Shown here one piece after another: positions 22,479-61,517 of a DNA stretch of 64,000 nucleotides (positions are counted from its first letter, which is position 1; every line of letters starts with the position of its first letter). The stretch comes from Antedon mediterranea. Taxonomy: Eukaryota > Echinodermata > Crinoidea > Comatulida > Antedonidae. Under the pieces are notes generated by a model, which saw nothing but the letters and a program-made list of their open reading frames with translations, did no database searches and was not told the origin of the DNA. The DNA lies in contig NC_092672.1 of assembly GCF_964355755.1 (NCBI RefSeq), positions 2,170,001 through 2,234,000 of the forward strand. The letters are read 5' to 3'. The translations under genes were made by a program, and so were the position numbers.

Positions 22479-25400
22479 TTAATCACATTCCCAGCCGTTA
22501 TCTTTTATCATGTGAGCCAGTTCTATAATATATTTGCCTTCTTTATATTTCTGGCTGTTCTCAAAAGCATGTTCCTGGAAAAAAAGAAGAAAAAGAAGAT
22601 TGTAAACATGGTGTTTGGTTACTGAAAAGCTGGGTTCAAATCCTGTCCAACATCATTTTTAAAAGGGTAGGTTCTAACAAAAAATGAGGATGGCTTAGGC
22701 TCTGTCTACACTATCAAACTTTATGTGACACAAATATGTGGCCATATATGGACATGATGATCTCATATCACTACTATATTTGGGCACGTCACAACCAAAT
22801 TTGGGAACATCATGTCATCATTTTTGTCAAACTAGTTTTACAGAGCTTTGTCAACCCTAAAATTTCAAATTTACTTGTTACAAGCTCAATTCCCCACATC
22901 CCTTTAAAAAAAAAAAGCCGAAAAGCTTGAAGTGGGAGACCGGTGCTTTTAAATGATAACATTTGGTGTGGTGGGCTTAATCCTGGAACAATGTATCATG
23001 ACAAGACTACTGTACAAGGTCACCATTTTTAATTATGTATCAATAGCAAACTGTCTAATTACTTTAAAATGAGTATGAATATGAATCAGTATAATTTATT
23101 ATGACAAGAAATTCATTTCATAAATAATCCGGAATTCCTGTAACGTTATGGAACCTCATCATTTAGCCATTGTTTAGGATTTGTTGAAAACTATTCATTA
23201 CATCATTGTCGTCAACGTCATTGTATTCGCCACTGATGTCACAGTAATTAACCTCATTGTCTTTGCATACTACTCATTAATACTATTACAATACTGCTCA
23301 TCAATATAATAACACATTTATTAATTAAGGTGCATTAAGCAATAACAACACAGTTCATCAACTGGAGGCATAGCAACTAAATGGATGGAAAATAATTTGA
23401 ATTTAATTTGCTTCCTTTTTATAAAAGGTTGTCAAAAAAAAAAATATTTTAGATAGAATGACCATACTTTACAGGACACCACAGCACATGCAGTTTAACA
23501 GTGTATAGAATTTGTTTTACAATTGACCTATTGGTTCAGGAAGCTGTACATTTTTATAATAACCTATTTTTATGAATATTCATGATAGTTCATGAATATT
23601 CATTAATAAATTACAGGTACCATTGTCATGTATCGTAAGTTAACTGATGGTTATCAGCTGATGTCATTGTTATGCATTGTACATTGTATAGTATGTGTAT
23701 ACTGTGAAAGAACGGTTCATGGTAGGAACATGGTACAGCAGGCAATGAATGCATTACTGTATGCATGGTAGGAACATGGTACAGCAGGCAATGAATGCAT
23801 TACTGTATGCATGGTAGGAACATGGTACAGCAGGCAATGAATGCATTACTGTATGCATGTGAATGCAGTCTTTTTGAGGTGTAGGAATGTGATCACTTGC
23901 ACTTCTAAAATGCCTCCAAGGTGCAGCTTTAGTATTTTCAGCCAACATAAAAATCTTCTACACACCATGAATTGAATTTCAAGGTACAAACAGCATACAT
24001 ACTGAAGCACCACCACAATTCCAGCCTCACCACAACCCCCCCCCCCCCCCCACACAAATGTGTTGAGGAATGCAATTTGTAGAACACTTACAATTTTCAA
24101 AAGACAAAAGACAAGACCTGACTACTGTATAGTACAAAGTCAGACAACAACTAGTTGTTTACCAAAGCATCAGTTCAAAAAGTATCAAACTTCACAATCA
24201 ATTTGAGTACAATTTGCTGTACATCTTGCGAATAAATACAGCCTCAGTGTTGTGTAAATGAAATCGCATAATTAACACAATTATATTCAGTGACACAGAA
24301 ACTAAGCAATTATTGGTCTTTTTATCTCATAAAATCATTACCATGTGAAATTAGTAAAGAAAATAATCAATCACGCAGATTGAAAACATATGTGGGATGA
24401 ATAGTAACATAATGAGGTTTACTGTTTCTCAGATAATATAACAAGAAGCGTTGTTACCAGGAATTAGGGAAAATGTAAACAGGTCTATAATATAACGCAG
24501 CGCGTAACTCTATTCACTATCCTATCCTTCATTTTCGATATCTGTGATAAATTGTTACTTACATATTTCCACCCTAATGTAGTTTTACAGCATTCACAGA
24601 ATATATCAGATACAGCGTGCAACCCTGTTAGTAAGACACGTTCCTCAGCCGGACCACACCCTACATTAACACTATGAAAAAAAGATAGGTTAGTATGAAT
24701 ATCGAGAAAACGCTCTCTCTGGTGGACAGGAAGTCCATGGTAGATACAGTTAAAAATAGCAGTGTAGTATTTATGCTCCTTTAGGAGACATCTCTATACA
24801 TGGGAAATCCCTATTAACAAGACACCCCTATACAGGGGGACACACCTATTAAGTGGACACTTTGCCTTGAAAATTATAGAAGATGCTTGTTCAGGAGACA
24901 CTTTTTTTTGGTCTTGAATGAGTAAAGCCTTCTCTACACTACTCAATTTTATGTGAAAAAAAGGTGTGTGCCCATATGGATGATGATGTCATATCACTAC
25001 CATAATAGGGCACATCACATTTTTGTTTGGTCAAAATAGTTTGATAGTTTAGATAGGGATTTAGGCACAAAAGGCAAAAATGTCTGTCTGCTAATAATAG
25101 AATAATTTAAAAATGGCAACAATAAAGACAATTTTCAAACACCTATATAATTACATTTCCACCAAGAACAAATTAACTAAAAAGCCTGGAGTCTCTCAAA
25201 GAGCCATGTCCATGGTTGCTAGGAAATGCAATCAACAGTTGATGAAATATCCAGTGCTTATTAAGACCATAAGGGGTTTTAACCAATTAAATACAAAATG
25301 TATAATAGATACTTCTATTTAAATCTAAAATTAATCTAAATTATGGAAAATAATTGTTTTCACTGTGATAATAAGAACAAGTTTGCGATCATGTGCTACC

Positions 25401-28400
25401 CACATGTTTTCTCAGTGTGAACATGTTCAATGAGAGAGATACCTCAGTGTGAACACATGTTGAGTGTGTGAGTATTATACCCTCAGTGTGAATACATGCT
25501 TAATGAGTAGTATAGATTATTTTTACATTATGCGCTAGCAATGGATAATAAATGATGGAATATATAAATAAGCTATAAATTCACTGAACGATCTCAAAAT
25601 ATTTTAAACCAGTTTTGTAAATTTTATATCTCAAGATGATTTGCTACTAAACATGTTTAAAAACATTTCAATTCATTATTATTAATGTGAATATTAATGT
25701 TCTTATAAAATGTGTTCTTGTACTGACGGTAGACGTAGAATACATTAACAGGTTGTCTTTGTCAATACCATCGCCTTGCCTCCTAGCATGACATCCAATT
25801 AGTGTAGACATGTGTGTGTGTGTTAAATCAACCAGTACATGTACATGTCAATATTGCTTAACGCCCATTGAGGTTGGCTAGGCTGGTAAACTTGCGTTTA
25901 GATGCAAGTTGGTAAATTATTGATGCAACAGCAACAAGATAGACAAGTTAAAATACAAAAAGTGATAATATATTGTGAACTTAATTAGGATAAAATGTGA
26001 ATTTATTTAATGTTTACAATTAATTTTTATGTCACTAACTATTGAGATTGAGAGAAATAATATGGTGGCACTATGTAACACAAAAACTATCCTGCCCATG
26101 GCATAGGGAAATGGCATGAAATAGTGGAAAGCACCATGTTGCAAGATGAGAGGCGCAACTTATAATGATGATGATGATGATAAAACCACACAGTGAAAAA
26201 CAAGATACTTTGGAAAGTAGACTATCTTTATCCTGCTAACTTTCACCATTCCCGAAACCCAACCCCACCTATCTTAACACCACCTATCCTAACTACACAC
26301 GTAACTGGTTCCATCTGCCATCTCCATTTCACCTCCCCCCCCCCCCTTTCCCCATTAATTTCACCTATCCTAACTACACACGTAACTGGTTCCATCTGCC
26401 ATCTCCATTTCACCTCCCCCCCCCCCTTCCCCATTAATTTCACCTATTTAAAACACTGTACAAAGTGTCATACTAATCATATGTACAAATACAGCAGTAA
26501 AAATTATACATTTTAATCACCGAAAAACATAATTCAGAAAAACCAACCACCACAAGGAAATAAAAAATGGTTGCTTTACAGCTGAATAGAAACCACAGCA
26601 TTGAAACAGGTTTTTTTTTGTAAAAATAATTTCAGCATAAATGTCATATCTGTAACATTTATAATTATAATTTCCTTTAGGACATTATGAATAGTAAGAT
26701 TATATTATTAAACTGGAAAGTGTAAGGCCACTACATTACATCGACATGTTATTCTAATTTTTTGTTTTATTTGTATTTTAAATTTATTAATGCATGTCTT
26801 TTTAAATGTATAATTATATTTATGTAATACTCTGTATTATGGCTGTAATTTGTGTCTAAATAATCTTTTTTTTTGCTAAATGATTTAAACTGATGATGTT
26901 TGTATGGTTGTTAGCTTTAATGTATTAAAAATACTGAATTGCAGCGTAAAAAAAAAGGAATTGATAATTTAAACTTTTTATACAGAATGGAGTATACTGT
27001 AGTGCGCTATTTTTTTTTTTCTTTTTTTTTTTTTTCTGTATACTCGCAGCTTTATACTTTATTTGTTCATAAAATGATATATTTATTTTAGTTAAGATCA
27101 TGGGACTGCTGACTCTTGTACAGTAGTTACAGTAATCGTATTACTTTAACAGTCCCTGACCAATTCACATTTGCACATTGATTTTTATGTTTTGTTGGTC
27201 AAATAAATAAATGAAATGAAATGAAATTACTGGCTGTGGAAGGGTTTGATCGGACTAGCTGGGGTAATAATGTAAAAGCGTTATTGGGGTACAGTAGCTT
27301 TTTCTCATTCTCACAGATTTCCTCATCTCTACCGTTTAAAATTAATTAATAAATTTCCAGTATATATTCATCAGGCGGTTTACAATATGCACTATTAAAT
27401 GAATAAATTATCATTATCATAGGTTCTTAAGTCCAAGAATTATCATTATGATGCAAAGCAAACAGGAATCTGCTAAGTAATTAATTCATGACATACTTTG
27501 TAACAGGTCACATGAAATACAAACATTCATTTAAATTAACGATAATCTTAAATAATCTGTCAGCGTCAGCCCAAAAATATAGTATATTCTCATTATTTTT
27601 ATATTAATTTGAATAATTAACTAATTTGTATTTTACCCTTGGAAGTTTAGCCTGTTCACAATGCATGCATGTAATTTATTATCATGACTAATTTGCAATT
27701 GATTTTATTTTTTGTTTATAAATGTTCAGTCAATTAGAAATGAGTTTAATATCACTTTTCTTTCAATTTACAGAGACAGTGCATGTCATGTTAAGACTCC
27801 CCAAAGAGGTTCCTGCAAAAATTGTCACCCCATATTGATTGTAGATCGGATGTAGTTGTTGTAGTGCAGAGTAAAATCAGAATGGTTAACAGTCTCATAT
27901 CCTGGCTTGCAAGTAGGAATCAGTATAATCATGTGACATGGTTTAGTTAGGGTAACAAGGTTAGAAAGTGTGAAACACTAATATGAGCTTTCGATTTGCT
28001 AAGACAACAATAAATTATTATTATAATTTTACCAGCATACAAGTAAAAGGGGAAAAAAGGCAACTATTAATATCTAAAGTTCTGTCTACTCTATCAAACT
28101 TTATGTTTCAAAAAAATGTGATGTACCCATATATGGACATGATGATGTCATATCACTACCATATTTGGGCATATCACTACCATATTTGAGCGTATCACAC
28201 TGGTTTGATAGTGTGGACAGAGCTTAATGTAATTATTATACTCACACTGAATTAAATAGGTAAGCTCTTCCCTGGCTTCCTTGAAATGACTAAAAAAAAG
28301 AAAAAATAAAATTTGTAGTTATTATTTTGAAGCAAAACTGTAATTTATCCAACATTAGCTCTTGAGTGCAAGCTATGTGGTCTACAATTATCAATGTCAG

Positions 28401-31400
28401 GTTGGTGATCTGCATGTCATAGGTTCGAGTCATATCTAAGAACGTCTTCTTTTTCTCAACAAGCACTCTAAAATGTATGGAGTATTCTGTATAATTTACG
28501 TCAAAGTTAATCAAAACATCTTCTTGTCACACAAATAAATTTGTTATCATAGTCGTTGTAAAATTCATCAGCATGTCCATTTGAGAAGACAATTAGTAGT
28601 TTGTATGCATAATTTGTTTCCTCAACTGTGTAACAAATGTGATTCTCCAGTGAACACTAATTTTATTTATTTAGTACAATGTCAACATCCTGTTAATAAT
28701 CTAATCTTACATATACCACTAGTTACTACATTACTGTATTAATATAGGATTTGAATAATGTACTAAAGAAGTTTAAAAAGACTTTTTATAATCCTACCAT
28801 CTACTGTATCTAAAATATAGAATCTTAAGCACGGTAGGGTATGGAAAGAAGTTAAATCAACCATAATACAGATAATACACTATCAAACTTTATGTGACAA
28901 AAAGATGTGCCCGTATATGGACATGATGACATCATATCACTACCATATTTAAGCATATTACTATCATATTTGTGCACATCACACCAGTGGTGGCGCCAGC
29001 GGGGGGGCTACGGGGGCTCTAGCCCCCTTGTCGGGGAGCCTAGCCCCCCCGTCGGGGAACACGGGTACTTTTTGTCGGGGAATATAATATACAGTAAAAA
29101 ACGTTCGCGTTCACTTCATATAGCTTCAGCGCCTAGAAAACCACGACGTTCCATTGACCGTGAGAGAGTACGTCAGAGAGCTATTATGCACTTTTATGCA
29201 TTCATTTATTGCCAGCGATCTAACTTACTACTAAACATTAGCTAGGTTCGCACTTGTCTGGCGGTATCCCTTTGTACGAATTGTTCAACGTTGGGTCGAG
29301 ACGCGTGATATCATGTTCCATCCAGGGACCAAAATGTGTACTGTAGTTATTTTCCAGGCGAAGTTTACTGACGGTTACGTCGTGTACTGCGTCGACGTAC
29401 GCTACACTACAGCAAAAACGAATTAATTGTTCGTATGTTCACCAATTTTTTTAATTTACAAGTAACCTTCTGTACCGTGGGGCACCTAAAATAAATTTTT
29501 CATCCATTACTAAACAAAAAAACATGCCATTTTCGCTTAGCCAACATCTTATTATAGCTAAGTTATTACATTTTCAATGTCCTGTATGTCATGAATTTCT
29601 CACCACTCGGAAGTCCAGATGGTACGCACGCATACACTTGGGAGGAATAAACTTATTTCCCCGACTGATAAAGGTCTACGCTTGCGTTTTTTAAGCCTCT
29701 AGGCCTGATGTTTCCGAAGTATAAAATGCAATTTTTTGAAGACCTGCAGCTCTAGTTTTAAACAGTTTCTTAGCTCAGCCCCAACAATAAAGCTGGTCAT
29801 ATTTCGAAGTACAAGAAGTCCATTTTCCGGGACCTAACATCTCTATTTTTCAAACATTTCTTAGCTCAGTCACAACCTTGATACTGAGGAACTTATATAT
29901 TTTGTTTCATGTTTTGAAGTATAATAAGTCCAACTTCCGGGACCTCCAACTCTATTTTTCTAAATTTTCTTTGAACTTTTATTTTTTAAATTGAAAAATA
30001 TGGATTGAAACAGTCATCGCGCATCGTTTTTTTGCACGCAGTATTTTATTTATGCATTATAAAAAATGGAAAAAATGGCTACCCTAAATCTGATTAAAAT
30101 GACCTCAAATGACGCTAGAACGCGTTGCTTCCGGGGGCTTCGCCCCCTGGACCCCCACCGGGGGCCCTTGGCGGCCCCCTGGCCCCCAGCCTAGTGATGC
30201 TCGCATAGCCCCCTCGTCGGGGAATGTAGCCCCCGCGTCGGGAAGATCCTGGCGCCACCCCTGCATCACACTTCTGTCCAAACTAATTTGATAATGAAGA
30301 CGGAGCTTTAGATCTAGAATTCCCGGAATATTATTACAGTATGTTAAATTGACCAAATACAGTCCTGAATGTCCAAAGCTTTTATGGAAGCATTTGACTC
30401 TTGATTAGAAGGTATTGGTGTGTTTACTTTATTGTCGCTGGTCTTTTGGACAGTTGACTAAAAATAATAGGAGAAATACCGGCAAAGGATGTTTAAGCAT
30501 TTTAATATTAATAAAATGTAGTTCCAAGGCATTTAGCTGTTTTTGATTAACAGTACTGCACATTACAGACAATTTTGGCACCATTTTTAAATAATTTTTA
30601 ATTAATTTTGTAATTAAAGAACTATAGAATAAAATATAGTAATAACAAAGTTAATTAATTTGTTAATAGTTGCGGCAAAAAAGGGAAGGGCTGATTGACA
30701 TTGAAAATTTATTCTTTATGACCATTGGTTCAGCATTAACTGTAAATGCTTAGTTTCCTTTGTTCAATAAAAACAGATATTTCTTTGAATTCAAGGCATT
30801 GCCCAAAACAAACAAAATCTATTCTTAGAATTTGATAAACTATCTATCTGTACAAATATGTAAATTTTGAAACCAAACATTTTAGCAGCAGCTAGCCTGA
30901 ATTTAGTTATTCAAGTGCGCTTGGCTTGATTATTTATGGTAACTACGTTTTTATACTCATTAAATCTTTAAACTCGCTCATAAAGATTTGATTTTAAATC
31001 TATCTATCCATAAAATTAGTGTTTTTGCAAGATAAACAAGAAAAGCTTCCTGATGCACAAAAAGCAATTAAATAAATTTTAATGGACAGGAGGTGTTAAA
31101 CTGGATATAAATCTTGGTATATTTTGTTAAAAATAATAATACAGGATTGTAAGTGTCTTAACAATGTCTCAAAACAATATAAGTCAACAGGATCAGGAAA
31201 ATAGAACACAGTTGTGAAGGTAGTCTCAGAAACAGTTGGTGTAATTGAGGACGGTAATGTCCAAGGAACCTGCAGAAGGACCATGATATTTTTTCACATT
31301 CTCTAATAAAACGAAACAATTCTAACTTTACAAATAACTCTAAAATTAGAAGAAATATTTTAAAATTGTATTTGTTAATTTGAATGTACAATAAATGTTA

Positions 31401-31520
31401 ATTTGAATAATATGTTACCTTAGATATGAGGTCATCATGATTGGCTAGATGAGCTCTGCAGTGTATGCAGGCGTACCGCCGATGGCAGGTAGGTAGATAC
31501 GCTTGGAATGTCTTTACCAT
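22479..31520 (-). CDS. YPEL: Yippee-like protein (YPEL1-4 type), four coding exons, 116 aa
   Basis: Coding exons in transcript order: 31520-31419, 28289-28246, 24671-24563 and 22574-22479. All have GT/AG borders, phases 0, 2 and 0 fit, and the total is 351 nt with TAA. The protein has the full Yippee zinc-binding pattern C-x2-C-x52-C-x2-C (Cys18, Cys21, Cys74, Cys77). Family signatures are [56 protein letters not shown] and [12 protein letters not shown]. The length fits YPEL1-4 (about 118-121 aa). Yippee proteins form a beta-barrel-like zinc fold; vertebrate members are linked to centrosome, mitotic or growth-arrest roles, and no enzyme activity is visible here. The start ATG at 31520 opens the conserved N-terminus. 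A possible 5' UTR acceptor lies near 31556 and a possible non-coding donor near 35767, both tentative. The introns carry MITEs and a hAT element nested in a MITE. Confidence 0.96.
22696..22849. mobile_element. MITE family B copy in YPEL intron 3
   Basis: Left end GGCTCTGTCTACACTATCAA, core CATATATGGACATGATGATC, right end CAAACTAGTTTTACAGAGCT. It starts about 120 bp upstream of the last YPEL exon's acceptor. Confidence 0.9.
23719..23858. repeat. 46-bp tandem repeat x3 in YPEL intron 3
   Basis: Three nearly perfect units beginning CATGGTAGGAACATGGTACA and ending AATGCATTACTGTATG. Confidence 0.95.
24775..24910. repeat. GGGACAC/GACACC-type degenerate repeat
   Basis: Phrases such as AACAAGACACCCCTATACAG and CACACCTATTAAGTGGACAC resemble the text at 58030-58215 (CCTTATTAGGTGTATCC, GTGTCCACTGAATAGGTG). 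This suggests two decayed copies of one repeat family. Confidence 0.5.
24923..25062. mobile_element. MITE family B copy in YPEL intron 2
   Basis: Left end TAAAGCCTTCTCTACACTAC, short core with GATGATGTCATATCACTACC, right end AGTTTGATAGTTTAGATAGG. More diverged than average. Confidence 0.85.
25063..26240. other. YPEL intron 2, mostly unrecognised
   Basis: Holds a weak repeat of CTCAGTGTGAACACATG-type phrases (about 25408-25500) and a short GATGAT run (26165-26180). The open frame at 25113-25322 has no recognisable features. Confidence 0.4.
26265..26445. repeat. 83-bp direct duplication with C-runs
   Basis: Two adjacent copies of CACCTATCCTAACTACACAC, GTAACTGGTTCCATCTGCCA and TCTCCATTTCACCTCC, each followed by a run of about 10 C, then CCCCATTAATTT. 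Open frames on both strands come from this duplication. Confidence 0.9.
26980..27227 (+). mobile_element. Possible retroelement 3' end
   Basis: Text ending TTGGTCAAATAAATAAATGA then a short AAATG tandem (27206-27227) looks like the 3' terminus of a non-LTR element or SINE with a simple-repeat tail. No coding sequence was found upstream. Weak call. Confidence 0.35.
28075..28226. mobile_element. MITE family B copy next to YPEL exon 2 donor
   Basis: Left end AAAGTTCTGTCTACTCTATC, two interior subrepeats, right end TTTGATAGTGTGGACAGAGC. It ends about 19 bp from the donor of the 44-nt YPEL exon (GTGAGT at 28245-28240). Confidence 0.95.
28874..30311. mobile_element. MITE family B copy split by a hAT-like element
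   Basis: Left part 28874-28984 (ACACTATCAAACTTTATGTG to GTGCACATCACAC) and right part 30264-30311 (CATCACACTTCTGTCCAAAC to GACGGAGCTTTA) rejoin exactly into a normal family B copy when the insertion and one copy of the 8-bp duplication are removed. Confidence 0.93.
28985..30263. mobile_element. Non-autonomous hAT-like transposon, 1279 bp, nested in a MITE
   Basis: It has terminal inverted repeats CAGTGGTGGCGCCAG (left) and CTGGCGCCACCCCTG (right) with adjacent GGGGGGCTA/TAGCCCCC-type subterminal runs. The 8-bp target duplication CATCACAC is at 28977-28984 and 30264-30271. The CAG start and 8-bp duplication are standard for hAT elements. The interior has no transposase frame that I can recognise. 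It holds three diverged internal repeats with TTCCGGGACCT and TTCTTAGCTCAG (29700-29980). The GC-rich ends encode short spurious proteins. Confidence 0.92.
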
Positions 31521-31760
31521 CTTGACTTCGTTACGCAGCACAAAACACAAAATTTCTGAAGAGATCACAGCAGCTAAGTTCCACGAAAATGCAGATCTTA
31601 GTCAATAAAGGATGCTACAGTAAACACAGATCACGACTTCAAGGGGGGATCACAGTCAACTACAAGTGGAGATCACAGCCAACTACAAGTGGAGATCACA
31701 GCCAACTACTTGAAGATCACAGCTGAAAGCTACATGAACTGCCAAAGACCACCACTAAAG
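31521..31760 (-). other. Likely YPEL 5' UTR/upstream with 29-bp tandem repeat
   Basis: At 31640-31735, AGATCACAGCCAACTACAAG-type units recur about three to four times. A plausible splice acceptor (TCTCTTCAG on the minus strand, near 31556) lies upstream of the YPEL ATG, so a separate non-coding first exon is likely further right. Confidence 0.45.
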
Positions 31761-32640
31761 AGAATTGCTGAAAACCAGTGGAGATGCCAATTTCCACTAA
31801 AGTTGTCTTTTCACAAAAACTGCTAATAAACTTTCTTTATAATAATATCAGATATTTACAATAAATAAGGTATTCAATATTTAAACTATAACAAGAATTG
31901 TCTTTGTGGGAGCATTGAGTTTTGAGTTTTGTACAATGGTTCGTTTGTTGCGCCTTTTCTTCCACCGGGGGAAGAGTTTCTGTGCATTAACCATTTGATG
32001 TTGGCTTTTATATTGTTCAACTCTTCTTCTCTTTTCCCCGTCTTTTTACAAACTTTTTTTCTGATGAATTAGTTTATCTGTTGAAACTTTTACAGTTGAA
32101 GCTCACTGCAAGAAAAACAAAAATGTTTTTAACAATGATTCTAAATATTTAAAAGCTTAATTGAAATAACATTAAATAAAAAAGTTCATAACATTACTGT
32201 ATCATGTTATATTTTTAAGGGTCTGTTCCTGCTGCATAACAACTGAATAAATATTTAATTTCAATGTTTCACTGGGTGGTCATTAATGAAAAAACCTTAA
32301 AATTACCCAAAATACAATGCACTCAGTCAAATGTTCATTGGCAATAGTAATTGAATGAATCAAATAAGCGTTAATTTTCAGCATTTTTAAGCTAAAAGTT
32401 GCATAGTGATATTGATAACAGATTAAGTGTGTTGAGCGTTTTTAACCATAATTTTCGCCATTAATTGAAATTTTTTGGAGGTAATTTATTCACCTCAGGA
32501 AAAACAAGACAAGTGCACTGTACATTGTATCATTCTGATGAGGAAATTTGCTAGAATGACAACAAACAACCCTGTCATATACTATGGTACAAAAGGTCAA
32601 GGACACTCATCACAACAATGACTCAATATTACTCAATTCT
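31761..32640. other. Intergenic DNA, nothing recognised
   Basis: AT-rich with no convincing frame or repeat. Possible YPEL upstream region. Confidence 0.4.
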
Positions 32641-32644
32641 TGTC

Positions 32645-34255
32645 CTAGACAAGAACTTTTATTGGTTATCCGCAACGAAGTTGCAGGATAACCTCTTGTG
32701 ATTGTACGAAATCATCATCAACATCAACTTTTTATTTCTCTTCTTTCTTTCTGTATGATTTTTGTGGAACGCTTTTCTCGAAAACTTGCAAACATAACAT
32801 TTTGTAACTTTCTCAACATATCGTCATGCACATGAAGATGTGCAGCGAAGCTTTTCATGATGTTTACAATTGCGCAACGTGACTTACGCGCGATTTAACG
32901 ATTTTGTCGTATTTAACATAGCTCAACAACCAAATAACATTTCAACTTGAAACTTTGCAAAAGTTTAATTTATATCATGCGCTAACTTTCTGTTGAAAAA
33001 AAATTGCGTGTTTTACACAAAGTTACGCGCGCACGCGCATATAAAATTTCAAAATGCGCAAAATTAATTTATAATCAACTTTCTACGCGTTTCATGTCGT
33101 TTTAAGCATGTCAAAAATTCCCACGCGTGCGCACATTTTTACGTGTGCGGTGCGCACGTAGCATTGAAAACGTATTTTTTTCGCGTGATTTATGTTGTTC
33201 CAGCTTTTTCAAGTAATTTTACGAAATTTTTAACAATTTCGACTTAAAGATACGTCATACGAGCACGTCGAATTGGACAATTGGCGCGCGTTTTTTATGA
33301 AAAGGGTAAAAAATTCGTTTAAAATATGCCTTTTTTTAAACAGTCGTAATTTCTAAACTAGACGGTCAACTTTTTGTGGATGGCATATTCTGGAAGTAGA
33401 TGAGTTGTAGATATCGGATCAAGTAGTAATATGGCTAACCTGACATTGTGACGTCATCGTATGGCCACACGAATATAAAATTTAGGATTTTTGTATCTTT
33501 CGTCATAGCTCATCACATTGAATAGAGCGCATCTCCACTTATCCGTTTTCCATTTTCACCCCGATTTTGATATTGTCTAGGTCAATCAAGTATCTTTCGC
33601 ATGAGTTAAAAATATTTTAATTTTTTTGACGTCATCATGCCTAAAAATTTAAATCACGTGTGGCATTAATTTCATCTTTACAGTAAATTTTAATCTGTTA
33701 TAGCTCGTAAGAATAAAATGTGATAATCACGATTAAAACTTTTTCTGGAAGCTATTGGATTGTAGATACGAAATTATGTAAAAATGTTGCCAATCGGATG
33801 TTGTGACGTCATCATATGGCCAGTTAAATAAAAAAGGTCGTATTTTCATCTTTTGCGTCATAATTCATTACATTTAAAAGAGCGCGCATCAATATTTCAC
33901 GTATTCAAATTTCCTCTACACGCTAATACGTTGTTGCTGAGATAATTTCCTTTCGGAATTGCTACCTTCGCGTTTCATTTTAAAACCGTCAACATGTTAA
34001 AAATTGCAATAAATAGCGGGTCCCGTAATTTCACCTATTCTACACTGTATGTGATATGGATACAGATACTGTGTATACTATATATGAATTTAAATAATAA
34101 AATTCAGCAATAACAACATATCATATTCTTCAGTTCAGGTCATAATGCCAACGTGAACACTTCCTTTTGTCCTCAACCTATCCCCTTAATGTTAATGTTG
34201 CACCACTTGCGCGGCGGATAACCAAACTCGTCAAAGTGACGAGTTACATGTCTAG
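32645..34255. mobile_element. Non-autonomous DNA transposon, about 1.6 kb, with GGTTATCC ends
   Basis: Left end CTAGACAAGAACTTTTATTG then GTTATCCGC. The right end, reversed, reads CTAGACATGTAACTCGTCAC followed by GGTTATCCGC, so the termini are imperfect inverted repeats. The interior is rich in CGCGC/ACGCG words, unlike its surroundings, and has an internal direct repeat (GTGACGTCATCGTATGGCCA at about 33449 and GTGACGTCATCATATGGCCA at about 33802, each followed by CATC/CGTCATA text). No transposase recognised. Confidence 0.75.
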
Positions 34256-34474
34256 TTCATTTCAAGTTGATGCAATAAAAACAATAACAAAGACCCTTTA
34301 AACCAAAACAAATCTTTGAAAAAAATCGATCATTTTATAAATTGCAACAAACTGGTAATTAGGAAATATTTTATAAACATGTTAAATAAATAGTTTTAAA
34401 GGGGCATATTCAATTTCACAAATTTTAATGCAAAAGATAGGATATGAAATTAAGTTCAAGGATATCCACGTTAT

Positions 34475-34621
34475 GCTTGGTTTCCACTAGAGACGCAACA
34501 CCACGACGTAACGCAATGTAAGGGATTTGACCAATAACAAGCGATGGATTTATTCGGCTGTTGATTGTCATTGGTCAACACGCTTACGTTGCATTAACGT
34601 CCTAATGGGAACCAAGCTTAC
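34475..34621. mobile_element. MITE family A copy
   Basis: Left end TGCTTGGTTTCCACTAGAGA, right end CCTAATGGGAACCAAGCTTA. The core has ATTTGACCAATAACAAGCGA paired with TTGTCATTGGTCAACACGCT. Confidence 0.93.
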
Positions 34622-34974
34622 TGTAACTCGGTAAATAATCATTCCTTACAAGCTGTCCAGATTTAGCAAGGCTTCAGAGGCCAGAGTTGACATGGCGGCA
34701 TTGCAGGGTACTGTACTGGATGTTTTATTAGTGACCTTTTAGAAACAAAGGATTTTTAGAAAATTCTGCTGGGTAAATAAATAAAATTTAAATTGTTTTC
34801 TGGTGGCGTTCAGGGTCTCCTCTTTCCTGGTTGTGATAATGCATGGGTAATGTGATAAGGATTCCAAATATATAACTTCCTGTTATAAACAAGAGTCTTT
34901 ATAAATTTTTTTATTTTATTATGTCAGCATACTGTACTGTTGATCTTTAATTCCTCATAAAGGTTTTGTATTCA

Positions 34975-35205
34975 AATTGTTTTGTTGTTCCACAACAGTA
35001 CCCACAATGCATTTCTGGTAGTTAATTAAATATAGATTTAAATGTTCATCTCCTTTTATACCTTGATTTTAACAACAGTACCCACAATGCATTACAGCTA
35101 CTGTAGCTCATCTTAATTTATACCTTGATTTTAACGGCAATACCCACAATGCATTGTAGGTACATAGCTCATCTCTTTTTATACATTGATTTTAACAGCA
35201 AGGAA
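34975..35205. repeat. Diverged tandem repeat with ACCCACAATGCATT
   Basis: Three units of about 65-75 bp share TATACCTTGATTTTAACAAC and AGTACCCACAATGCATT with variable spacers. A fourth TATACATTGATTTTAACAGC marks the right edge. Confidence 0.8.
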
Positions 35206-36190
35206 ATAATAATGAATAAGGAAACATTTATTATTTTTACAGGAGTATCTACTGTATTATATAATGTTTAATTTGCTATAGATTGTAAAAACATCGTAAT
35301 ATCACTTCATCGGTAGTAGATGTGAATGTACTGGGAAGTGTGTAGTAGTACTGAATTTTGCATACTCAATACTGAAAATTATTTGCAGCATGAAATGTTC
35401 GCTAATTTAAATCACTCCCAAATTCGCGAAAGTTTAATACGTGCAAAACTTTTTGGTTTTACACTAAGTACATGTAATCTTCAACTGTAAGTTCACCAAT
35501 ATCACTCCTTTCCACCTTTAAATTAAGTTAAAATGCAACCTTTTATTATGAAAAATTCTGTTTCAGGACAGAACACATGCTTGATAAACAAAATGGACAT
35601 TATTTTGCAACTTTGACTAAAGCTCCTAAATTTTGTTTTTATATTGTGGAAGACATATAAATAGTAAATAATAAATAAGTTTAAAAACTAAATTAACAAC
35701 TTAATAGAGATAATATAAATAGAGAAAATAAATAAAAGTTAATGTTTTAATTAAGAACGTTACTTACCACCAACTGGAAGATGGGACGAAATGAAAACTG
35801 GAGTTAAACAAAGGTAACAAAAGTGTACTATAAATGAGGTCTAAACAAAGAAAGGTCACAAATACCCCACAGGTAAAATATTGCACCAATCAGCACACTA
35901 CAATGCAGGAAAATAAAAACCACCAACTAAACATAGACAGCTGATTGTGCTTTATGTGAAGTTAGAGTATGAACTTAAAAAGTTCAGCTGAATTTGATCC
36001 TCAGACAAAGAGCATATTTTGGTTATGACCACATTGTTTACTAAAAAAGGAAATTAAACTGCTAATAATAGGTGCATGCATACAACAGTCATTACTAATT
36101 GTTTTCTACAGTGTTTGTAGTGAATGTTATATAATTTAATTAACTATACACTTCTTCATAATGCTACAGGCAGTAACTTTTCAATTAGAT
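35206..36190. other. Intergenic DNA, nothing recognised
   Basis: On the minus strand a good donor (GGTG|GTAAGT near 35767) could end a YPEL non-coding exon, but this is a guess. No coding signal. Confidence 0.35.
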
Positions 36191-36299
36191 TTTTAACATT
36201 TTTGTTATTTATTTATACTGAGTGACCTTTTCAGTCAGAGACTGGTCTTTCATAGGGCCCAGTTATGATCAGTGGCTATGTGCGTGTACTAGTACATCG

Positions 36300-36530
36300 A
36301 GGTAACCTCCTAATCGTCTCGAAAGATGTACAGTACTAGGTTCTTTAAAGTGTACATGAGCTAGATGTGTACAGGCACACTGGACCTACGGTTTATAATC
36401 CTTATCCGAGAAGACTCATTCCACCACCGGAACCACATTGAGCGAGTTAGCCTCAAACTCTTGCCGATGTTATGGCTATGTATAATTACGGTTCCACTGT
36501 CTAAACTGCGCGGCCACCGAAATCACTCAA
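36300..36530 (-). mobile_element. tRNA-derived SINE copy (minus strand)
   Basis: Reading the minus strand, an A-box-like GGTGGCCGCGCAGTTTAGAC is followed by AACATCGGCAAGAGTTTGAG, GCTAACTCGCTC and then TTCCGGTGGTGGAA, AAACCGTAGGTCCAGTGT and TACACTTTAAAGAACC. The same order is found in the SINE at 56484-56838. This copy is diverged in the A and B boxes. Confidence 0.75.
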
Positions 36531-36974
36531 TCAATAGTTTTTACATTTAGTAAAACAGATTTTATGCAGACAGGAAGAAGGAATACATGTAGTTTCAATC
36601 CCTCTAGTTTTATTTTACTAATGTTTTCCCCTTTAGTGTGATCTTTTAACAAAGACATTCCACTCTTGCAGTGCATAGCAACAGTTATGGTTTTAAGTTA
36701 TATTAAGAACAGTGTCAATATACTTAATTAAAATTCCGGAAAAAAATGCTATGAAAATAAAGAGGCTCTTATCTACTTCCTCCTTTACACCAGCACTTTA
36801 TTAAATTATAAAACTTAGCTACTTAGCTTAAGAACCAAAGTATTCCATTGTTCTAGTAGTAACTAGTATGCAATTATTACGCCCTGTTTACCTGATCAAT
36901 ATGTACCAGATGGAAGTAACCAATTAAAATCATTTAATTGTATTGCTTTTGAGAATAAAATTTACTCAAAGAGT

Positions 36975-37186
36975 AAAGCGTGGTTCCCACTAGCGACGCA
37001 ACGTAACGCAATCTACGCAACGTAAGAAAATGCCCTTCAAATCATTGTGTTTGCCCCCGCCTGCGTGAAATCAAACCTACGATGTTTGCAGCACTATTGC
37101 GTCGTCGGTTCCCATTTGTGATTACGCAATACAGCACTTTGCGTCGATACGTCGCTGCGTTGCGTTCTAGTGGGAACCAAGCTTCA
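36975..37186. mobile_element. MITE family A copy (long form)
   Basis: Left end GCGTGGTTCCCACTAGCGAC, right end GCGTTCTAGTGGGAACCAAG. The interior matches 8590-8760, including AAGAAAATGCCCTTC and CGCCTGCGTGAAATCAAACC. Confidence 0.93.
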
Positions 37187-37359
37187 ACACATGAGAACAA
37201 ACGCTATCTACTGTAAAATGATGTCATTGTTTACAGCTGTATTGCTTGTTGTATTCAGCTGTGATGTTGAATTGTTGGTAGTAGTGATCAATACAGTTCA
37301 TTCTTTTCCCACAGATTATACACACAAATTCACAATTCATTTTACTTCAAGCTAATGCG

Positions 37360-37484
37360 TAAAGATCTATTAACACTATCAAACTTTATGTGACAAAAAA
37401 TGTGATGTGCCCATATATGGACATGATGTCGTCATATCACTACTATATTTGGGAATATCACTACAATATTTATGCACATCACAC
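37360..37484. mobile_element. MITE family B copy, right end missing
   Basis: Starts AAAGATCTATTAACACTATC, has the CATATATGGACATGATGTCG core and stops after GCACATCACAC without the right terminus. A CATGT tandem (37637-37662) lies further right. Confidence 0.88.
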
Positions 37485-39540
37485 TTCGCCATCGCCATCC
37501 TATCACTTCTTAGTAGGAATGTGTCGCCATTTCTTCCTATATTACAATGCCAATATTGATGAACGAAACACAATAATGATTTACAAAGTGTGATCTTTAC
37601 ATGATGTTCTAATATTTTATAACATAAATTGGACATCATGTCATGTCATGTCATGTCATGTCATTAATTATTAGTAACCTTTGAACATTTTGTTAATTAC
37701 TGCCTATATAGCAGAATTACAGTATGTTAATTAAAAACACATGAGAGGTATTCTGTTGATAGGGCCGGTAGGCGACGTTGTCAGCACTGGAATGTAGTGT
37801 AATGTCAGATCATTGATTACAGATATTTTTTGACTGAATCAATTGTCTAATAATATTTTGTAATTATAATAATATAAGGTGGTTTTATTGTACGCTTGTT
37901 TATTGTATCCGTGTGGTCAGGCACTGTAAACAAAGGTCAGAATTATGTAACTATAACAAACAATACTCCATAGTAAATCAATTTGTGGTAGCCTAGCCTA
38001 TGCCTAATATACAATGTGAATGTAGTGTATTAATTAGTGCATGCAGCATAGGGCTAGCAAAGACTTTCCAGGTCAGGGGCCTGTAATATAGTTAGTAACT
38101 AAACTAGGCTAGTGAGTTCTTTTTCTAGAGTAGAAAAAAGGGTAGGGTAACAAAATTGCATTGACGGTCTATTTTGGATGGAGTGCATCCTTCGAAAGTA
38201 GGCTACGCTTCATCATTGTGAGGGGGTGGGAGTAAAGATCTAGAAGGATGAAAGTACTGGCCTGGGGATAGCAGTTTATTGTCACGAACTGCCACCTACC
38301 TTATGTGAGTAATGTAGGCCAAAAAAAATGTTCGCACCAAAAATCAATGGCGCGCGAAACTACCATTTCGACCATCGCAATTCACACATATACACAGGTA
38401 CACCACACACATATATATTCAACATACGGAGTGAAAACAACTATATTATTAAATAATCCACAAAAACGTATTTTATGATAATCATTTATTAAATACTTAC
38501 ATTATTGCCAAGCTTAGTTTGCATTCAACAGAATATGCAGTAAAAAATTTAGATGTTTCTAAGCTCTCACAACGAAATCCTGTCATTCGTCGCAGTTCCT
38601 TCGCACTTGGTGTGTTGTTTTGACTGCATATGTTTAAGTCACGTGATCAATAATTGGCTACTATTTATTTTGTTACTGGGTAATTATTACAGAATCGCCG
38701 TTAACATTAAAAATAAAATGTTTTTATTTAAGTCCACAATATTTACTCACGTAATATTTATATTATAATAATATTAATATGAAGCTTTATATTCAATATA
38801 AATACATTTTACATCAACAAAAAATGTTATAGTTTGTAATTGTAGGTTGTATAGAAATAATGGAATAGTCCAACCTTTGATATCTGACGTTTGTTATGAT
38901 CACTATGCAAATTAGGTATATCGTCGGAACACGTTTTCCTTTCGCGTACTTTTTGCCAACAATAGAGGGAACATTATAACGAAAACGATTATAATATAAT
39001 TACTAAAATATTACTAAATAAACATCTACCAAAAGAGATTTAATAATATATTTTGTAATAAATCCAATTTATTACCGCACGAAAAACTACAATTTTGCAC
39101 CGTGAACGTGAAACATCCAATTGCCATCTGACATTGATAACGCAATCAATGTCACTTATGAATGAGTTCAATGATCGATCGTAAAACGAAGACATTACAT
39201 TTTTATATAACTTCTCCAGTGAAAATGAATTATTCATAATTCGAAGAACAAAGTTTACGAACCTCGTTAAATGCAAGATGCTGTGACGTCATAATATCTT
39301 AATCACATACTGCATTGTCCCATCCAACCAATCAAAAGGCATATACAAATATTGATAAATAAAATATAACAAAAACAATGACTAAAAATAAATTTATATC
39401 GGCCATATCAATATATGGCGATTATTGTGCAACAAATATCTAATCAGGCCATATGCACCTAACATATTTATGGATATGTTCTCGCACAACATTTATGGAT
39501 ATACTTTGTTACACAAAGCAGGAGTTAAGGCAAAGTCTCC
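37485..39540. other. Intergenic DNA, nothing recognised
   Basis: No exon with convincing splice sites and protein similarity was seen on either strand. It includes an AGGCCTA/CTAGGCTA-rich patch (37990-38120). Confidence 0.4.
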
Positions 39541-39569
39541 CTCTTGAATATGATGGGTGAAGTCTGCTC

Positions 39570-40215
39570 ATATTTTATTTATTTATTTATTTTATTTATT
39601 TATTTCCTTTATTGCATCAAGTAAGCAGTGATGAAGTTGACATAAATATAATAGTAAATATGTAAACACATAGTATAACACAGTCCAAACAAGTAATACT
39701 AAAATATATCATAGTCCACAAATCAGTCTTTCAATGGCCATCATAGTACATTCAGTAACACAAACCAAACAAGTTACTAAAATATATCATAGTCCACAAA
39801 TCAGTCTTTCAATGGCCATCATAGTACATCCAGTAACACAAACCAATAGGGGTTCACAATTTGCTTATCATAACTCAGTTACTGATCATTCACCAATCAT
39901 TGAAAACTCCGTGGAAAGTAATGAAGTTTTTTGTGCGTTGTGTCCGGACTTTGGGGAGGGTGAACGATCTAACGCGTCGAAGCTGATGGTTGTGTGTGGG
40001 AGGTTTAGGTAAGAGAGAGTGTAATATATGATCTTCTTTTTTCATTTTATCAAAGAATTTTCTTGACAACTTCTCGCGGCGTTCAGATAGAGTGATGATG
40101 TTAAGGTATCTGCGGGTATCAGCATACAAGGTACCATCGGGGCATATTATGTTACACGCTCTTCTTTGTATGGCACAAACTTTCTAATCACATTGAAGGA
40201 ATACAAGTTCATCGA
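39570..40215 (-). mobile_element. 5'-truncated non-LTR retrotransposon (LINE) 3' end
   Basis: On the minus strand, 40129-39890 encodes a frame with ADTRRYLNIITLSERREKLS and KFFDKMKKEDHILHSLLP. This resembles the C-terminal end of reverse transcriptases of CR1/L2-like elements, where RREXXXRRFF and LHXLLP are typical. The frame runs out at 39890. The 3' part holds an 80-bp tandem duplication (ATATATCATAGTCCACAAAT, about 39700-39850), and the element ends in a TTTA-rich run on the plus strand (39574-39605), i.e. a TAAA-type tail on its own strand. It is a dead fragment. Confidence 0.7.
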
Positions 40216-40439
40216 TGGTATAAAATCAAATTGCTGGTAATAAAACACATTGATTAAATAAAGTTTTTATTATTATTATTGGGACATGGTAGACTTGGAT
40301 GCAATCAGGTTAGCCCCAATTCATTGTTGTATTACATGCTGCCTGTGGGTCAAATATGGCCAGCAAGTGCATTTTATATGTCCCACAAAGAGCTACTGCT
40401 AAAAAAAGTAATGATAAAAAAAGTGGTAAATGTTGTTAA

Positions 40440-40567
40440 TGTTTAGTTCCCATTTGAGACGCAAGTGATTTCACCAATCACAAGCGATAGATTATTTTAA
40501 GTTTCGCATGTTATTGGTCAACTTGTTTGCCTCCTTTTGTTGCGTCTCTAGTGGGAACCAGGCTTAA
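40440..40567. mobile_element. MITE family A copy (short form)
   Basis: Left end GTTTAGTTCCCATTTGAGAC, right end CTCTAGTGGGAACCAGGCTT, core TTCACCAATCACAAGCGATA. Confidence 0.92.
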
Positions 40568-41621: not shown

Positions 41622-42798
41622 TTAATGGCCACCACCAACACACTTCATATCGTCTGCTGCTGTGTCATTTGTCTTTGCTGTTTGTTTTGCAAACTGTTCT
41701 GGTGTGAGTGTTTTCATTGTAAATGCATGAATGGATTCCATTTCTTCTTTGATACAACTGTTTACCATCCTGAAACAGAAATAATAAAATGACTTAAAGT
41801 TTAAAGCTTTTTCTACACTATCAAACTAGTTTGACACAAAAACAGAGTGATGATGCCCACATTCGGTGGTGATATGACCATCATCATCATGTTGTCCATA
41901 TATGGGCACACCACATTTTTTTGCTACATGAAGTTTGATAATACCTGTAATAATAATAATATTTATTACCTGTGCTGTTGTAAAAGTCCTTTCCCCTTAA
42001 ATTTGTTTGAAACAATAAAAGCGCTAAATTTGCCTCCACAACCATCCGATAAATCTTCAACATTCTACAAAAGGAAAGGATGACAATGTCAAGGGGGCCT
42101 TATATCCCAGGGGTCCTTATACCCCAGGGGTCCTTATATCCCAGGGGTCCTTATATCCCAGGGGGCCTTATATCCCAGGGGTCCTTATATCCCAGGGGTC
42201 ATACTGTACAGTACAAGTGCAATAATATTTTGTACCAAAATGAGATTATTATATTTTGTTATTCATAAATGGGTGTCTCATGGTCATGGTTCAGAAATCC
42301 TGACAGTATTGCACGGTGCCGGTGGTAGGGTTTTATTAGGAATTTATATAAAATGAATGAAAAGTTGTTTCTGGAAAGAAAAACATATTTTTACCACTCT
42401 GGGGCCTGGAGCATGATGTTAAAAATAGGCATTTGTCATTTGATATCACCATTTTATATCATGAAACTCAACCATGCGTAGCCTAGATTAGTACAGTATA
42501 GTGAATTATTACCCAGCCTATATGACCGCTCGCTATACTAGTAGTAGTAGTAGCTACATACAAAACACTAGGCTAGCTAGCCTAGAGTAGAGAGAGTTGG
42601 TTAGCTAGTCCTAGCCTAGGCCTATGCCTAGCTAGCTAGACATAGTCATAGTAGTAAGTAGGCTACTAGGCCTAGGCCTACTCAAACACGCAAATAAATG
42701 AAATAGAAGAAATGATATATTTTTCAAATACTAACCACATGTTCAGCTTCAAGTTCAATTTTAAGTTTTTTTGCCAGTATTTCTGCAGTTATGGCCAT
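41622..42798 (-). CDS. BOLA2: BolA family protein BOLA2 (three exons, 101 aa)
   Basis: Exons in transcript order: 42798-42736, 42064-41970 and 41769-41622. GT/AG borders, phases 0 and 2, and 306 nt with TAA. The N-terminus MAITAEILAKKLKIELEAEH is followed by VEDLSDGCGGKFSAFIVS, a basic loop GKGLLQQHR and MVNSCIKEEMESIHAFTMKT with LTPEQ. This is the BolA fold. Cys30 and His66 (IHAF) correspond to the cluster-ligand positions of BOLA2, which with monothiol glutaredoxin GLRX3 binds a [2Fe-2S] cluster and delivers iron-sulfur units in the cytosol. A tail of about 20 residues after LTPEQFAKQ, ending KCVGGGH, is longer than in mammals. The start is the only ATG fitting the first exon. Intron 2 is 200 bp and mostly a MITE; intron 1 holds a minisatellite and an AGGCCTA-rich patch. 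Confidence 0.95.
41801..41942. mobile_element. MITE family B copy filling BOLA2 intron 2
   Basis: Left end TTAAAGCTTTTTCTACACTA, core CATCATGTTGTCCATATATG, right end CTACATGAAGTTTGATA. It occupies about 142 of 200 intron bases, leaving about 31 nt to the acceptor and 27 nt to the donor. Confidence 0.9.
42090..42200. repeat. 18-bp minisatellite in BOLA2 intron 1
   Basis: About six units of GGGGTCCTTATATCCCA with small variants (ATACCCC). It begins just upstream of the exon 2 acceptor (42065). Confidence 0.93.
42470..42700. repeat. CTAGGCCTA/CTAGCTAG-rich patch
   Basis: Dense short palindromic words (CTAGCTAG, CTAGGCCTAG, TAGTAGTAGTAG) in BOLA2 intron 1. Simple-sequence character with no clear unit. 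Confidence 0.6.
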
Positions 42799-42969
42799 GT
42801 TTTCACAGTGACTTTCTAGGCTCTCGCACCAGGCCTAGTTAACAACAAAATAACAGCTTTACTTCCCCTCTCCGATCCTCTTGGGGCCCATTCATCGCAT
42901 GCTTGTTTTTGTTAGCTCGAGTATTTAGGAGACATTAAACGCCCTCTAGAGCTAGACGTTACTTTTAAT

Positions 42970-43499: not shown

Positions 43500-45835
43500 A
43501 AAAAGTTAAAGAAAAGAGTGTTCGATCGCCTCCTCTCTCTTTATTTTATTATAAGCTATTCCATTTGTTTAAAAAGTTATTTTTGTTTTGTTATGCTTTT
43601 CTTTTAATACGATTTGAAAAAAAAAGATACACCATGGGTTACAACAAAATGAGAAGTAAAGCATTTATTCAATACATTTCAAAATTTACAATAAAGAAAG
43701 GAAATAACTGTCCTCTTTAGATATCTCCTGCACTTTTTTTTTCAAATGCAAGATACTTTACGGTTGTATCATCAAATTTATTTTTCTACGAAAAATCCTC
43801 CTTTCTACCACTGTTTTCCGTAATTAGTAGTAAAATAGCATCCTCTAGATATCAGTTTAAAAAACTGTTTGACTGAAACACGACAAACTACTAAAAGCAT
43901 GGTTTTAGATATCTTTTTCTGTGAATATTTGTACAGAAAGAAAAACCTAGAGCAGATACAACACTACTAAACACATAACTATTACATACATATAAACACT
44001 GTGGTCAGAAAATGGACAAACATCATATTTGCTATGGAAATTTGGAGGTTTTACACATAGGATTCCTGCAAGATGTGAGGAAATGGATTTTGGAAAAAAT
44101 TCTAGTATGAAAATTTAGTAGTGAAGCAGATTTTATCCCGCTGACTTGCATGTGAGAGTCTCAGAGTAGAGATATGACATTATAATATGGACATATTAAC
44201 ATAGAACATTTAAAAAAAGTGTTTATCATACAAAATGCATACTGTATCTATATTAATATCATACCAGTACAAAATCTACAAGCTTAGGTGGTCCATATCC
44301 TGTCCACAGTGCTTACTATAACTACAGAATATACTCTTTATATGTAGAATTTTATATAATGCAGAACCTTCAAAAACAAACTCAATTACCGTGCATAACA
44401 AATAAATTGTATATACTACGGATGAAACATGTCGCATTGACAAAATTGGAATACAGCAAAGCTCTTTTACAAGGTCAGGTGGTAAATTGGACTTCAAAAG
44501 AGATCGTACATTTCATTAATGGATATCGAATGTGTAAGCTTACAGTATTAACATGATGTGAATTGTTTCTTTATAAAATTTAACAAAGATTGAAAATTAT
44601 GGAAATTGCCGTAAAGAAATAGTTAAGTAAAAATTTAACTTTCTTCCAAAAGAGTTGCAATTACTGCTGTCTGTGCAGTTTTTACGTCCTTGATGACAAA
44701 TTTGTGTTTCCAATTTTGCCATATCATATCGGGAACCACAAATATGAATAACTTACAACAATGTATAGGCGTACAAATAATGCATGTTTGTATTAAATAT
44801 ACTGTGTATACGTAGTCGTTTTTCCACAAGGCGAATTTATTCATGTAAATCAACAACATTATGTATATGTGTACACATAAATTTATTTTTGCGATTCAAA
44901 ATATTAGTTAACCAATCAGAAATGTTTGATTTTGCGTGAATATATTTGCCTAGTAGAAAAACAGTATTTAAATATGTCTCTGTGCAATGATACCAACATT
45001 ATTATGCATGCGTTTTAAACATTACTTTGCATGATTTTATTATTTTTTAAATTTGGTATAAACCTTATAGTAAAGTTCCATATATGCACAGCAATTAAGA
45101 ATGCAACTAAGTCTGTAGGTCTTATGTGTTTATATGGTAATAAGCTGCCCATATATGGGTATCATATGTCGTATAGATGATTTTATCATGCCAAGTACAG
45201 ACATATTATAATACTATTATATCATAAAAGCCTTATATTATATCACCTGTTTAACAGTGTGATAATAAAGTAGTGTTTTAGCAAAGTATACATATTTATT
45301 TGTGCTTCTGTCTTAATTTATTGTTTTTGATTATTATTACGATTTTGATACATCATGTTCATGATTTTGACAATTAATATATCAATTAAAACCAGATATT
45401 TTGAACAGGACCGGATCCAGGATTTTTTTTATAAATGGCAGAGAGTTAACATACAGTAATATTAATATTTGAAGATTAAGAGATCAGAAATAGATTATGT
45501 AAATTTAGCTGTCTAATGGAGATTCACAAGATACCTATGGATCCGTCCCTGTTTTAAACAATTATTTTTCCATAGAAAGATTTTATCAATATATTTGGTA
45601 ATAAAATAAGCAAATCATTAACAATATTAATTGATATCAACCATGTCCTAAAATTGGTGTTTTTAAAACTTCCCTGCATATACCGACAACTCTGAAACTT
45701 CTCACAATTTAATTTATAAAACACAATATATTTAACCATTAGTAAACAACATGTTTCTAGGTAAAAATAATTCAATCATGGTTGTTGCTAGGAGACAGTA
45801 ACAGCAGTGTCCATGGTTTCATAGACATGGTATAA
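43500..45835. other. Region between BOLA2 and MAPK, no gene recognised
   Basis: AT-rich. It may include the distal 3' UTR of the minus-strand MAPK gene (AATAAA-type signals on the minus strand occur, e.g. near 43664), but the UTR end cannot be fixed. Confidence 0.35.
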
Positions 45836-45837
45836 TA

Positions 45838-46046
45838 TAAGCTCTAGTAAACTGGTTTAGAATCTAGTAAACTAGTTTAGATTCTAGTAAACTAGTTCAG
45901 ACTAGTAAACTGGTATAGAACCTAGTAAACTAGTTCAGACTAGTAAACTGGTTTAGAACCTATTAAACTGGTTTAGATTCTAGTAAACTAGTTTAGATTC
46001 TAGTAAACTAGTTTAGATTCTAGTTAACTAGTTCAGACTAGTAAAC
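45838..46046. repeat. 20-bp tandem repeat TCTAGTAAACTAGTTTAGAT
   Basis: About ten units of TCTAGTAAACTAGTTTAGAT with variants (TGGTTTAGAA, AGTTCAGAC). Each unit contains the palindrome AAACTAGTTT. Confidence 0.93.
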
Positions 46047-46919
46047 TAAAAGTGATCAATTCTACATTTACTTCTTTAATAGAGTGCTTTAAACAAATAT
46101 GTACATGTATGTCAAAACTATAAACGGTAAACAACATAAAAAAAATCTTAATTTTTTTTTTCTTAATATATAGCAAAATTCTCGCACTGCACAATCCAAG
46201 TGCTCTAATTTATACATCTGCCACTTGCAAAACACAACCGCGTTTGAAGAGTAAAATGAACAGTTTCGATGGTACATGGATTGCGAAATGGGAGAATTAA
46301 ATATCAAACCTAGTAAATTTATCTAGATAGAATTGTAGCTTATTTAACATTATTTTTGTTCAAGAGAGAAAACTGCAAGTATAAAATTGTTTGATAACCT
46401 TGCATCATATTGGAGCCGTTCTCAGAACGTCTCAATTCTTAACATCTAAGTAATTGAATACAGATTTGCGTGACAAAACTTCTTGTTTATTTGTCGATGG
46501 GTATCCTTTTCAAAAACATTTTAAAAAGTCATTAATATAAATATGAGTGTTATAAAAACTAATTTTTCTTTCCAAAAAAAGCAATTTTAATTTTCATAAT
46601 TCATGATTTTGATATATTATATAAATTATTTTGATAATTATATCATGATTTTTATATATATATATATATGTTTATCTGACTGTGTATTCTATTTTTAAAT
46701 TTGAAATTCATAAAATAACTTAATATTTAATTTCTGATATTAAGATTAGGATATCGTCCAAAGCAAGATATCGATATAATTGCTATAGAAAATAGAGGGC
46801 AGTATAGCGGAAGCCTCAAGCTATCATATGATATAATGAATAGTTCAGTTAATTTGAATACATAACGCCGTATGAAGCTAAGTTTTGGATGTGTATAAAA
46901 TAAAGTATCACAGATAATT

Positions 46920-47190
46920 TTCTTATCTCACATATTTGCTATTACAAGCCCATACAATAGATTTCATTGGCTATGTGTAGTCAATGAAGACTTCTGATTG
47001 ATTGTTCTTAATCTTATTTCACATATTTGTTATTACAAGCCCATACAATAGAGTTTCATTGGCTATGTGTAGTCAATGAAGACTTCTGATTGATTGTTCT
47101 TAATCTTATTTCACATATTTGTTATTACAAGCCCATACAATAGAGTTTCATTGGCTATGTGTTGTCAATGAAGACTTCTGATTGGTTGTT
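46920..47190. repeat. About 90-bp tandem repeat x3
   Basis: Units contain TTCACATATTTGTTATTACA, AGCCCATACAATAGAGTTTC, ATTGGCTATGTGTAGTCAAT and GAAGACTTCTGATTGATTGT. Several ATTGG (CCAAT-type) words per unit. Confidence 0.95.
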
Positions 47191-47711
47191 CTGATATCAA
47201 ATACTAACAATAAAGCCAAACCAATCATCTGATTGGTCAAAGTACTTAAGCACCATTCTTATCGCAATTAATAGATTTCGGCAACAAGGAATAGAAGAGA
47301 AAGAATTACAAAAAAAAAAAGAGATAAATTTAGTTGATGACAAAAATTGACTTATTTGAGTTTTATCTATAATAAAGTAATATAGAAAACATTTTCAAAA
47401 AATAGCCATGTTACAATGGAAACCCAACATGGATTTTAACTCACACAGAACAAAAATTCTATCTGAATTAACTGAAAAAGCAATTATACACAAGTCACGC
47501 ATAATACAACTTGAAAATGCCCTTTTCCATTCCAAGTGCGAATGAGTGCTTTAATTATGAAACTACGCACTCTCTGGAACCAATAATTTGTCTGTATACA
47601 ATTCCATCGACAGATATTTACAGCAAATACTGGTGAATGTTGAAGATGATTTTTGTCTGAGCATCCTTTCATAAGCTTGTTATCTCTCCACACTCAAATG
47701 CCTTGTTGAAA

Positions 47712-61517
<13,806 letters not shown>

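Follow-up and report, generated by a model that had tools for sequence, protein, structure and literature searches.

Three genes lie on the minus strand of the window, the whole 64-kb stretch analysed here (C3:2,170,001-2,234,000), and follow one another in the direction of transcription as ERK1/2 (MAPK1/3), BOLA2 and a YPEL gene (Table 1). The stretch comes from the 354-Mb genome of Antedon mediterranea, which is assembled in 11 chromosome-sized contigs of 22-41 Mb each and 7 small ones, with a GC content of ~33%. All exons located for the three genes join in phase at GT/AG splice sites with open frames, and the coding sequences of BOLA2 and YPEL are complete from ATG to stop; YPEL, BOLA2 and ERK1/2 do lie on one strand, as a preliminary description had stated, and are spliced and intact. 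Since introns are present and the frames are open, a reading of the three genes as pseudogenes or retrocopies was ruled out. The interval of 22,479-61,517 given earlier begins correctly at the YPEL stop, but it finishes where exon 2 of ERK starts; exon 1 sits 7.4 kb past this point, and the whole block including it spans 22,479-69,028, extending past the right edge of the window. The intervals between ERK and BOLA2 and between BOLA2 and YPEL contain only short open frames without a recognisable family. The neighbourhood might have been created by a misjoin, as the evidence comes from one assembly only, yet 0 N were counted across the 164 kb formed by the window and 50 kb on each side, the ERK gene runs gap-free with its exons in order across 49.6-69.0 kb, and further families of human 16p11.2 and 22q11 share the chromosome. 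We give such a misjoin next to no credence, and misassembly was rejected on the grounds of the missing N and the continuous gene.

Table 1. Coordinates of the genes, repeats and linked families. Positions are on the window scale (negative values, left flank; values above 64000, right flank) unless C3 is given.
Feature	Position	Strand	Remarks
ERK1/2 (MAPK1/3) gene	49601..64000 in window	-	Exons 2-8 inside window; located exons span 69,028-49,601
ERK exon 1	69028-68910	-	Right flank, locus L010
ERK exons 2-4	61517-61391, 54934-54879, 52995-52806	-	
ERK exons 5-8	51926-51722, 51140-50982, 50612-50503, 49703-49601	-	
BOLA2	41622..42798	-	101 aa; 3 coding exons: 42798-42736, 42064-41970, 41769-41622
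YPEL1-4-type Yippee gene	22479..31520	-	116 aa; 4 coding exons; stop at 22479
YPEL exons	31520-31419, 28289-28246, 24671-24563, 22574-22479	-	
p24/TMED-family gene	12907-15664	+	PF01105
Transposon-like element	55158-57843		2.7 kb
Short inverted-repeat element, examples	18631-18745, 53138-53282, 61748-61881		
Satellite	936-2782		1.8 kb; 26-bp units, ~70 copies
Antistasin-domain exon array	~-14000 to -3200		Left flank, L008-L009
Exons related to the array	7000-10300		
Two tandem TMEM26-like genes	~-40473 to -34392		Left flank, L005-L006
KIF12-like kinesin, Elongin B, SLC25A33/36-like carrier	77000-114000		Right flank, L011-L014
KCTD10/13; CDIPT; SLX1; ALDO; PPP4C	C3: 0.55; 3.71; 4.28; 4.48; 5.20 Mb		
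PPIL2; CORO1-type coronin; GDPD; MVP	C3: 5.83; 6.19; 6.23; 7.23 Mb		
UBE2L3; QPRT and YDJC; TAOK	C3: 34.5; 35.2; 38.7 Mb		QPRT-YDJC: C3:35,202,575-35,215,821

The identity of the three genes was established from their spliced products. Eight ERK exons were located, while a short final exon was not found; among solved structures the product matched MAPK1 best and MAPK3 next (E 2e-195), and it was 79% identical to human ERK2. With a Pkinase domain in Pfam, the TEY activation-loop motif in the product of exon 5 and MAPK1/3 nearer than other MAPKs, the gene belongs to the ERK1/2 subfamily. The BOLA2 product, 53% identical to human BOLA2, contains the BolA domain (PF01722, E 2e-18), and its top match among solved structures was a mouse BolA-like protein (E 5e-23); chains named BolA2 (E 5e-17 to 4e-14) were nearer than those of BolA3 (2e-10) and BolA1 (1e-5), which assigns the gene to the BolA2 type. 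Likewise, the Yippee domain (Yippee-Mis18, PF03226) and identities of 92% to YPEL1 and 90% to YPEL3, compared to 46% to YPEL5, place the third gene in the YPEL1-4 type. When the genome was searched with all three proteins, high-identity exons were found at this locus only, so that ERK1/2, YPEL1-4-type and BOLA2 each appear as one copy, a call that rests on this search, in which an absent weak match is not proof of absence. A duplicated vertebrate as the origin of the sequence was rejected in view of the one ERK1/2 and the one YPEL1-4-type gene. A second BolA gene lies on C6, and a separate YPEL5 gene, intronless here, on C10. The Yippee Pfam search of the genome overlooked the YPEL gene of the window because its exons are short, and the spliced protein detects the domain.

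The human genome holds four genes of the YPEL1-4 type and has kept two of the MAPK (ERK1/2) type, together with one BOLA2 and its recent human copies. GDPD and CORO1 genes flank MAPK3, BOLA2 lies beyond CORO1A on the far side of MAPK3, and we know of no BOLA2 at 22q11. ERK1 is located at 16p11.2 and ERK2 at 22q11.2 (PMC11211608), and the gene list of 16p11.2 BP4-BP5 includes multiple BOLA2 copies (PMC4752317, PMC11211608). In both human and zebrafish, erk1 is followed downstream by ypel3 and erk2 by ypel1, and the two members of each pair have the same orientation (Busca et al., 2015; PMC4559367). The locus of Antedon agrees with both arrangements: as in MAPK3-GDPD3-YPEL3 at 16p11.2 and zebrafish erk1-ypel3, and as in MAPK1-YPEL1-PPIL2 at 22q11.2 and zebrafish erk2-ypel1, YPEL follows ERK downstream and shares its strand. 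The likeness to 16p11.2 that had been proposed holds for the ERK-YPEL order and also for the gene families, with ALDO, PPP4C, KCTD13, CDIPT, MVP, SLX1, CORO1, GDPD, QPRT and TAOK relatives on one chromosome. However, it does not extend to the position of BOLA2, a gene found here between ERK and YPEL and not beyond CORO1, nor to GDPD and CORO1, which lie 4 Mb from ERK instead of adjoining it; the human fine order, with GDPD between ERK and YPEL and CORO1 and then BOLA2 on the opposite side, is not matched, and we do not regard it as a defining feature. Moreover, the families are spread over ~7 Mb in Antedon with a second group 30 Mb further on, in contrast to ~0.6 Mb for human 16p11.2. Similarly, PPIL2, UBE2L3 and YDJC relatives share the chromosome of ERK as they do at 22q11.2, whereas TOP3B is on another chromosome (C7), PPIL2 is 3.6 Mb away from ERK, and BOLA2 is present.

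To place these families, human sequences or Pfam models were used for 14 further families of 16p11.2 and 22q11, with ERK at C3:2.22 Mb as the reference point for distances. All of them except TOP3B, i.e. 13 of 14, were found on C3, compared to four of 13 control genes (Fisher exact p 1e-3), and nine of the 14 lie less than 6 Mb from ERK, compared to none of the controls (p 4e-4); since the 6-Mb limit was picked once the first matches were known, the chromosome value is the fairer figure. UBE2L3, YDJC, QPRT and TAOK are more than 30 Mb away from ERK. The first controls were GAPDH, TPI1, PCNA and enolase, and because three of these, which are linked in human, fell on C3, nine more genes were added afterwards. 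The controls are partly dependent, as GAPDH, TPI1 and enolase make up three of the four on C3; their human relatives occupy one segment, 12p13. The search for shared neighbours suggested in the preliminary description was borne out for the CORO1, GDPD and PPIL2 families, all of them on C3, with the CORO1-type gene and GDPD ~40 kb apart. A coronin on C2 was rejected as a relative of CORO1A on account of bit scores nearer to CORO2B, while the C3 copy is nearer to CORO1A. T-box loci, as candidates for TBX6, were found both on C3 (three, at 19.2, 34.7 and 36.1 Mb) and on other contigs (four), and the human queries for SDF2L1 and CRKL gave no match in the genome, which is uninformative.

If the trio had gathered independently in the Antedon lineage, its likeness to the human regions would be coincidental. 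The different placement of BOLA2 would fit such a convergence, as would the distance of GDPD and CORO1, neighbours of MAPK3 in human. In contrast, for ERK with its roughly six neighbours, a rough chance model puts the probability that two of them come from a human neighbourhood of 30-60 genes at ~1e-4 to 5e-4, the order and strand of ERK and YPEL agree with both human and zebrafish copies (PMC4559367), and the clustering of the families around ERK is not shared by the controls. The chromosome-wide test is much stronger than the neighbour model, and we consider chance or convergence very improbable. The closeness of QPRT, a 16p11.2 family, and YDJC, a 22q11 family, which are ~10 kb apart, is a second hint of one ancestral neighbourhood behind both human regions.

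The single copies of ERK, BOLA2 and YPEL, the ERK-YPEL order and the linked families therefore support the reading of this locus as a pre-duplication counterpart, and we hold it to be highly probable that the window contains the single-copy counterpart of both the MAPK3-YPEL3-BOLA2 and the MAPK1-YPEL1 neighbourhoods. To this extent the view of a single pre-duplication locus stands, although it is the locus of a living relative and not of the ancestor itself; the accompanying statement that genome doubling split it into two is too simple in view of the four human YPEL copies. Common descent is the simplest account of the linkage. In the common ancestor ERK, BOLA2 and YPEL would have been linked, the first and the last as close neighbours and BOLA2 in their vicinity, and the larger ancestral linkage group would also have included KCTD10/13, CDIPT, SLX1, ALDO, PPP4C, PPIL2, CORO1, GDPD and MVP. 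The Antedon lineage would have retained one copy of the segment, while in the vertebrate line it would have been multiplied by whole-genome duplication followed by uneven copy loss (copies kept: MAPK 2, YPEL 4, BOLA2 1 besides the recent human copies). The position of BOLA2 between ERK and YPEL comes from one outgroup only and is compatible with an ancestral or a derived order. In line with this account, both human ERK segments match one amphioxus linkage group (Putnam, 2008, cited in PMC4559367). Conserved linkage of this kind is well known in animals, an example being the ancestral chordate linkage groups (PMC7269912). As in Antedon, one unduplicated group there corresponds to several vertebrate segments; the available parts of these sources make the comparison at chromosome scale and do not give a local ERK-BOLA2-YPEL order (PMC4559367, PMC7269912).

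Inheritance with slow rearrangement is most likely the reason for the persistence of the linkage. A variant of the same account, differing in the reason for persistence, assumes that the ancestral linkage was kept by selection, through regulatory elements in or beyond neighbouring bystander genes. The closeness of ERK and YPEL has seemingly survived in Antedon as well as in the two vertebrate copies, whereas the rest of the block is scattered over megabases here, and some animal microsyntenies are reported to be coregulated or to act as regulatory blocks (PMC8851819). However, the intervening sequence is rich in tandem and transposon-like repeats, and an Rfam search found no element in it. We regard selection as the less likely reason, though one to be taken seriously, and shared regulation that keeps the three genes together as possible; nothing in our analysis points to a common function of the ERK, BOLA2 and YPEL proteins. 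More doubtful still is the proposal that ERK-BOLA2-YPEL is a trio older than the Antedon-vertebrate split, kept intact through shared regulation as the remaining members of the block dispersed. If this proposal were true, the dosage sensitivity of 16p11.2 and 22q11 would partly reflect a regulatory unit from early animals.

Returning to the single-copy counterpart, its value lies in the comparison with 16p11.2 and 22q11.2, two segments in which copy-number disorders of human neurodevelopment commonly arise. The undoubled version in an outgroup separates the members already assembled when the vertebrate duplications took place from later joiners, and it provides a baseline for dating gene losses, for example the loss of ERK1 in cartilaginous fishes and in some tetrapods (PMC4559367). 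Since the vertebrate half was already published in 2015, the novelty is modest and the result useful rather than surprising; a literature search of partial coverage found no published invertebrate map of ERK-YPEL-BOLA2.

Several other features were observed in and around the block. The intron between ERK exons 2 and 3 contains a transposon-like element whose inverted repeats are very long (476 + 94 + 94 nt, 97-99% complementary), and its interior and surroundings hold fragments of an unplaced protein without a Pfam match. A dispersed short inverted-repeat element is bounded by CTCTGTCTACACTATCAAAC and carries in its interior a 21-bp repeat similar to CATATCACTACCATATTTGGG; 21 CTCTGTCTACACTATCAAAC ends occur in the 64 kb, where zero are expected by chance. 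A satellite lies towards the left end of the window, and the p24/TMED-family gene adjoins YPEL. On the far side of ERK, the right flank carries a KIF12-like kinesin, Elongin B and an SLC25A33/36-like carrier, none of which is a human 16p11.2 BP4-BP5 neighbour. In the left flank a large tandem array of antistasin-domain exons, with units of ~184 bp that are 90-95% alike and interleaved with WAP-like cysteine-rich exons, probably represents an expanding protease-inhibitor gene family, and related exons are present inside the window. Further to the left there are two tandem TMEM26-like genes, the second of which was confirmed by Pfam (E 1.5e-59), and past this pair a LINE-type reverse transcriptase frame.
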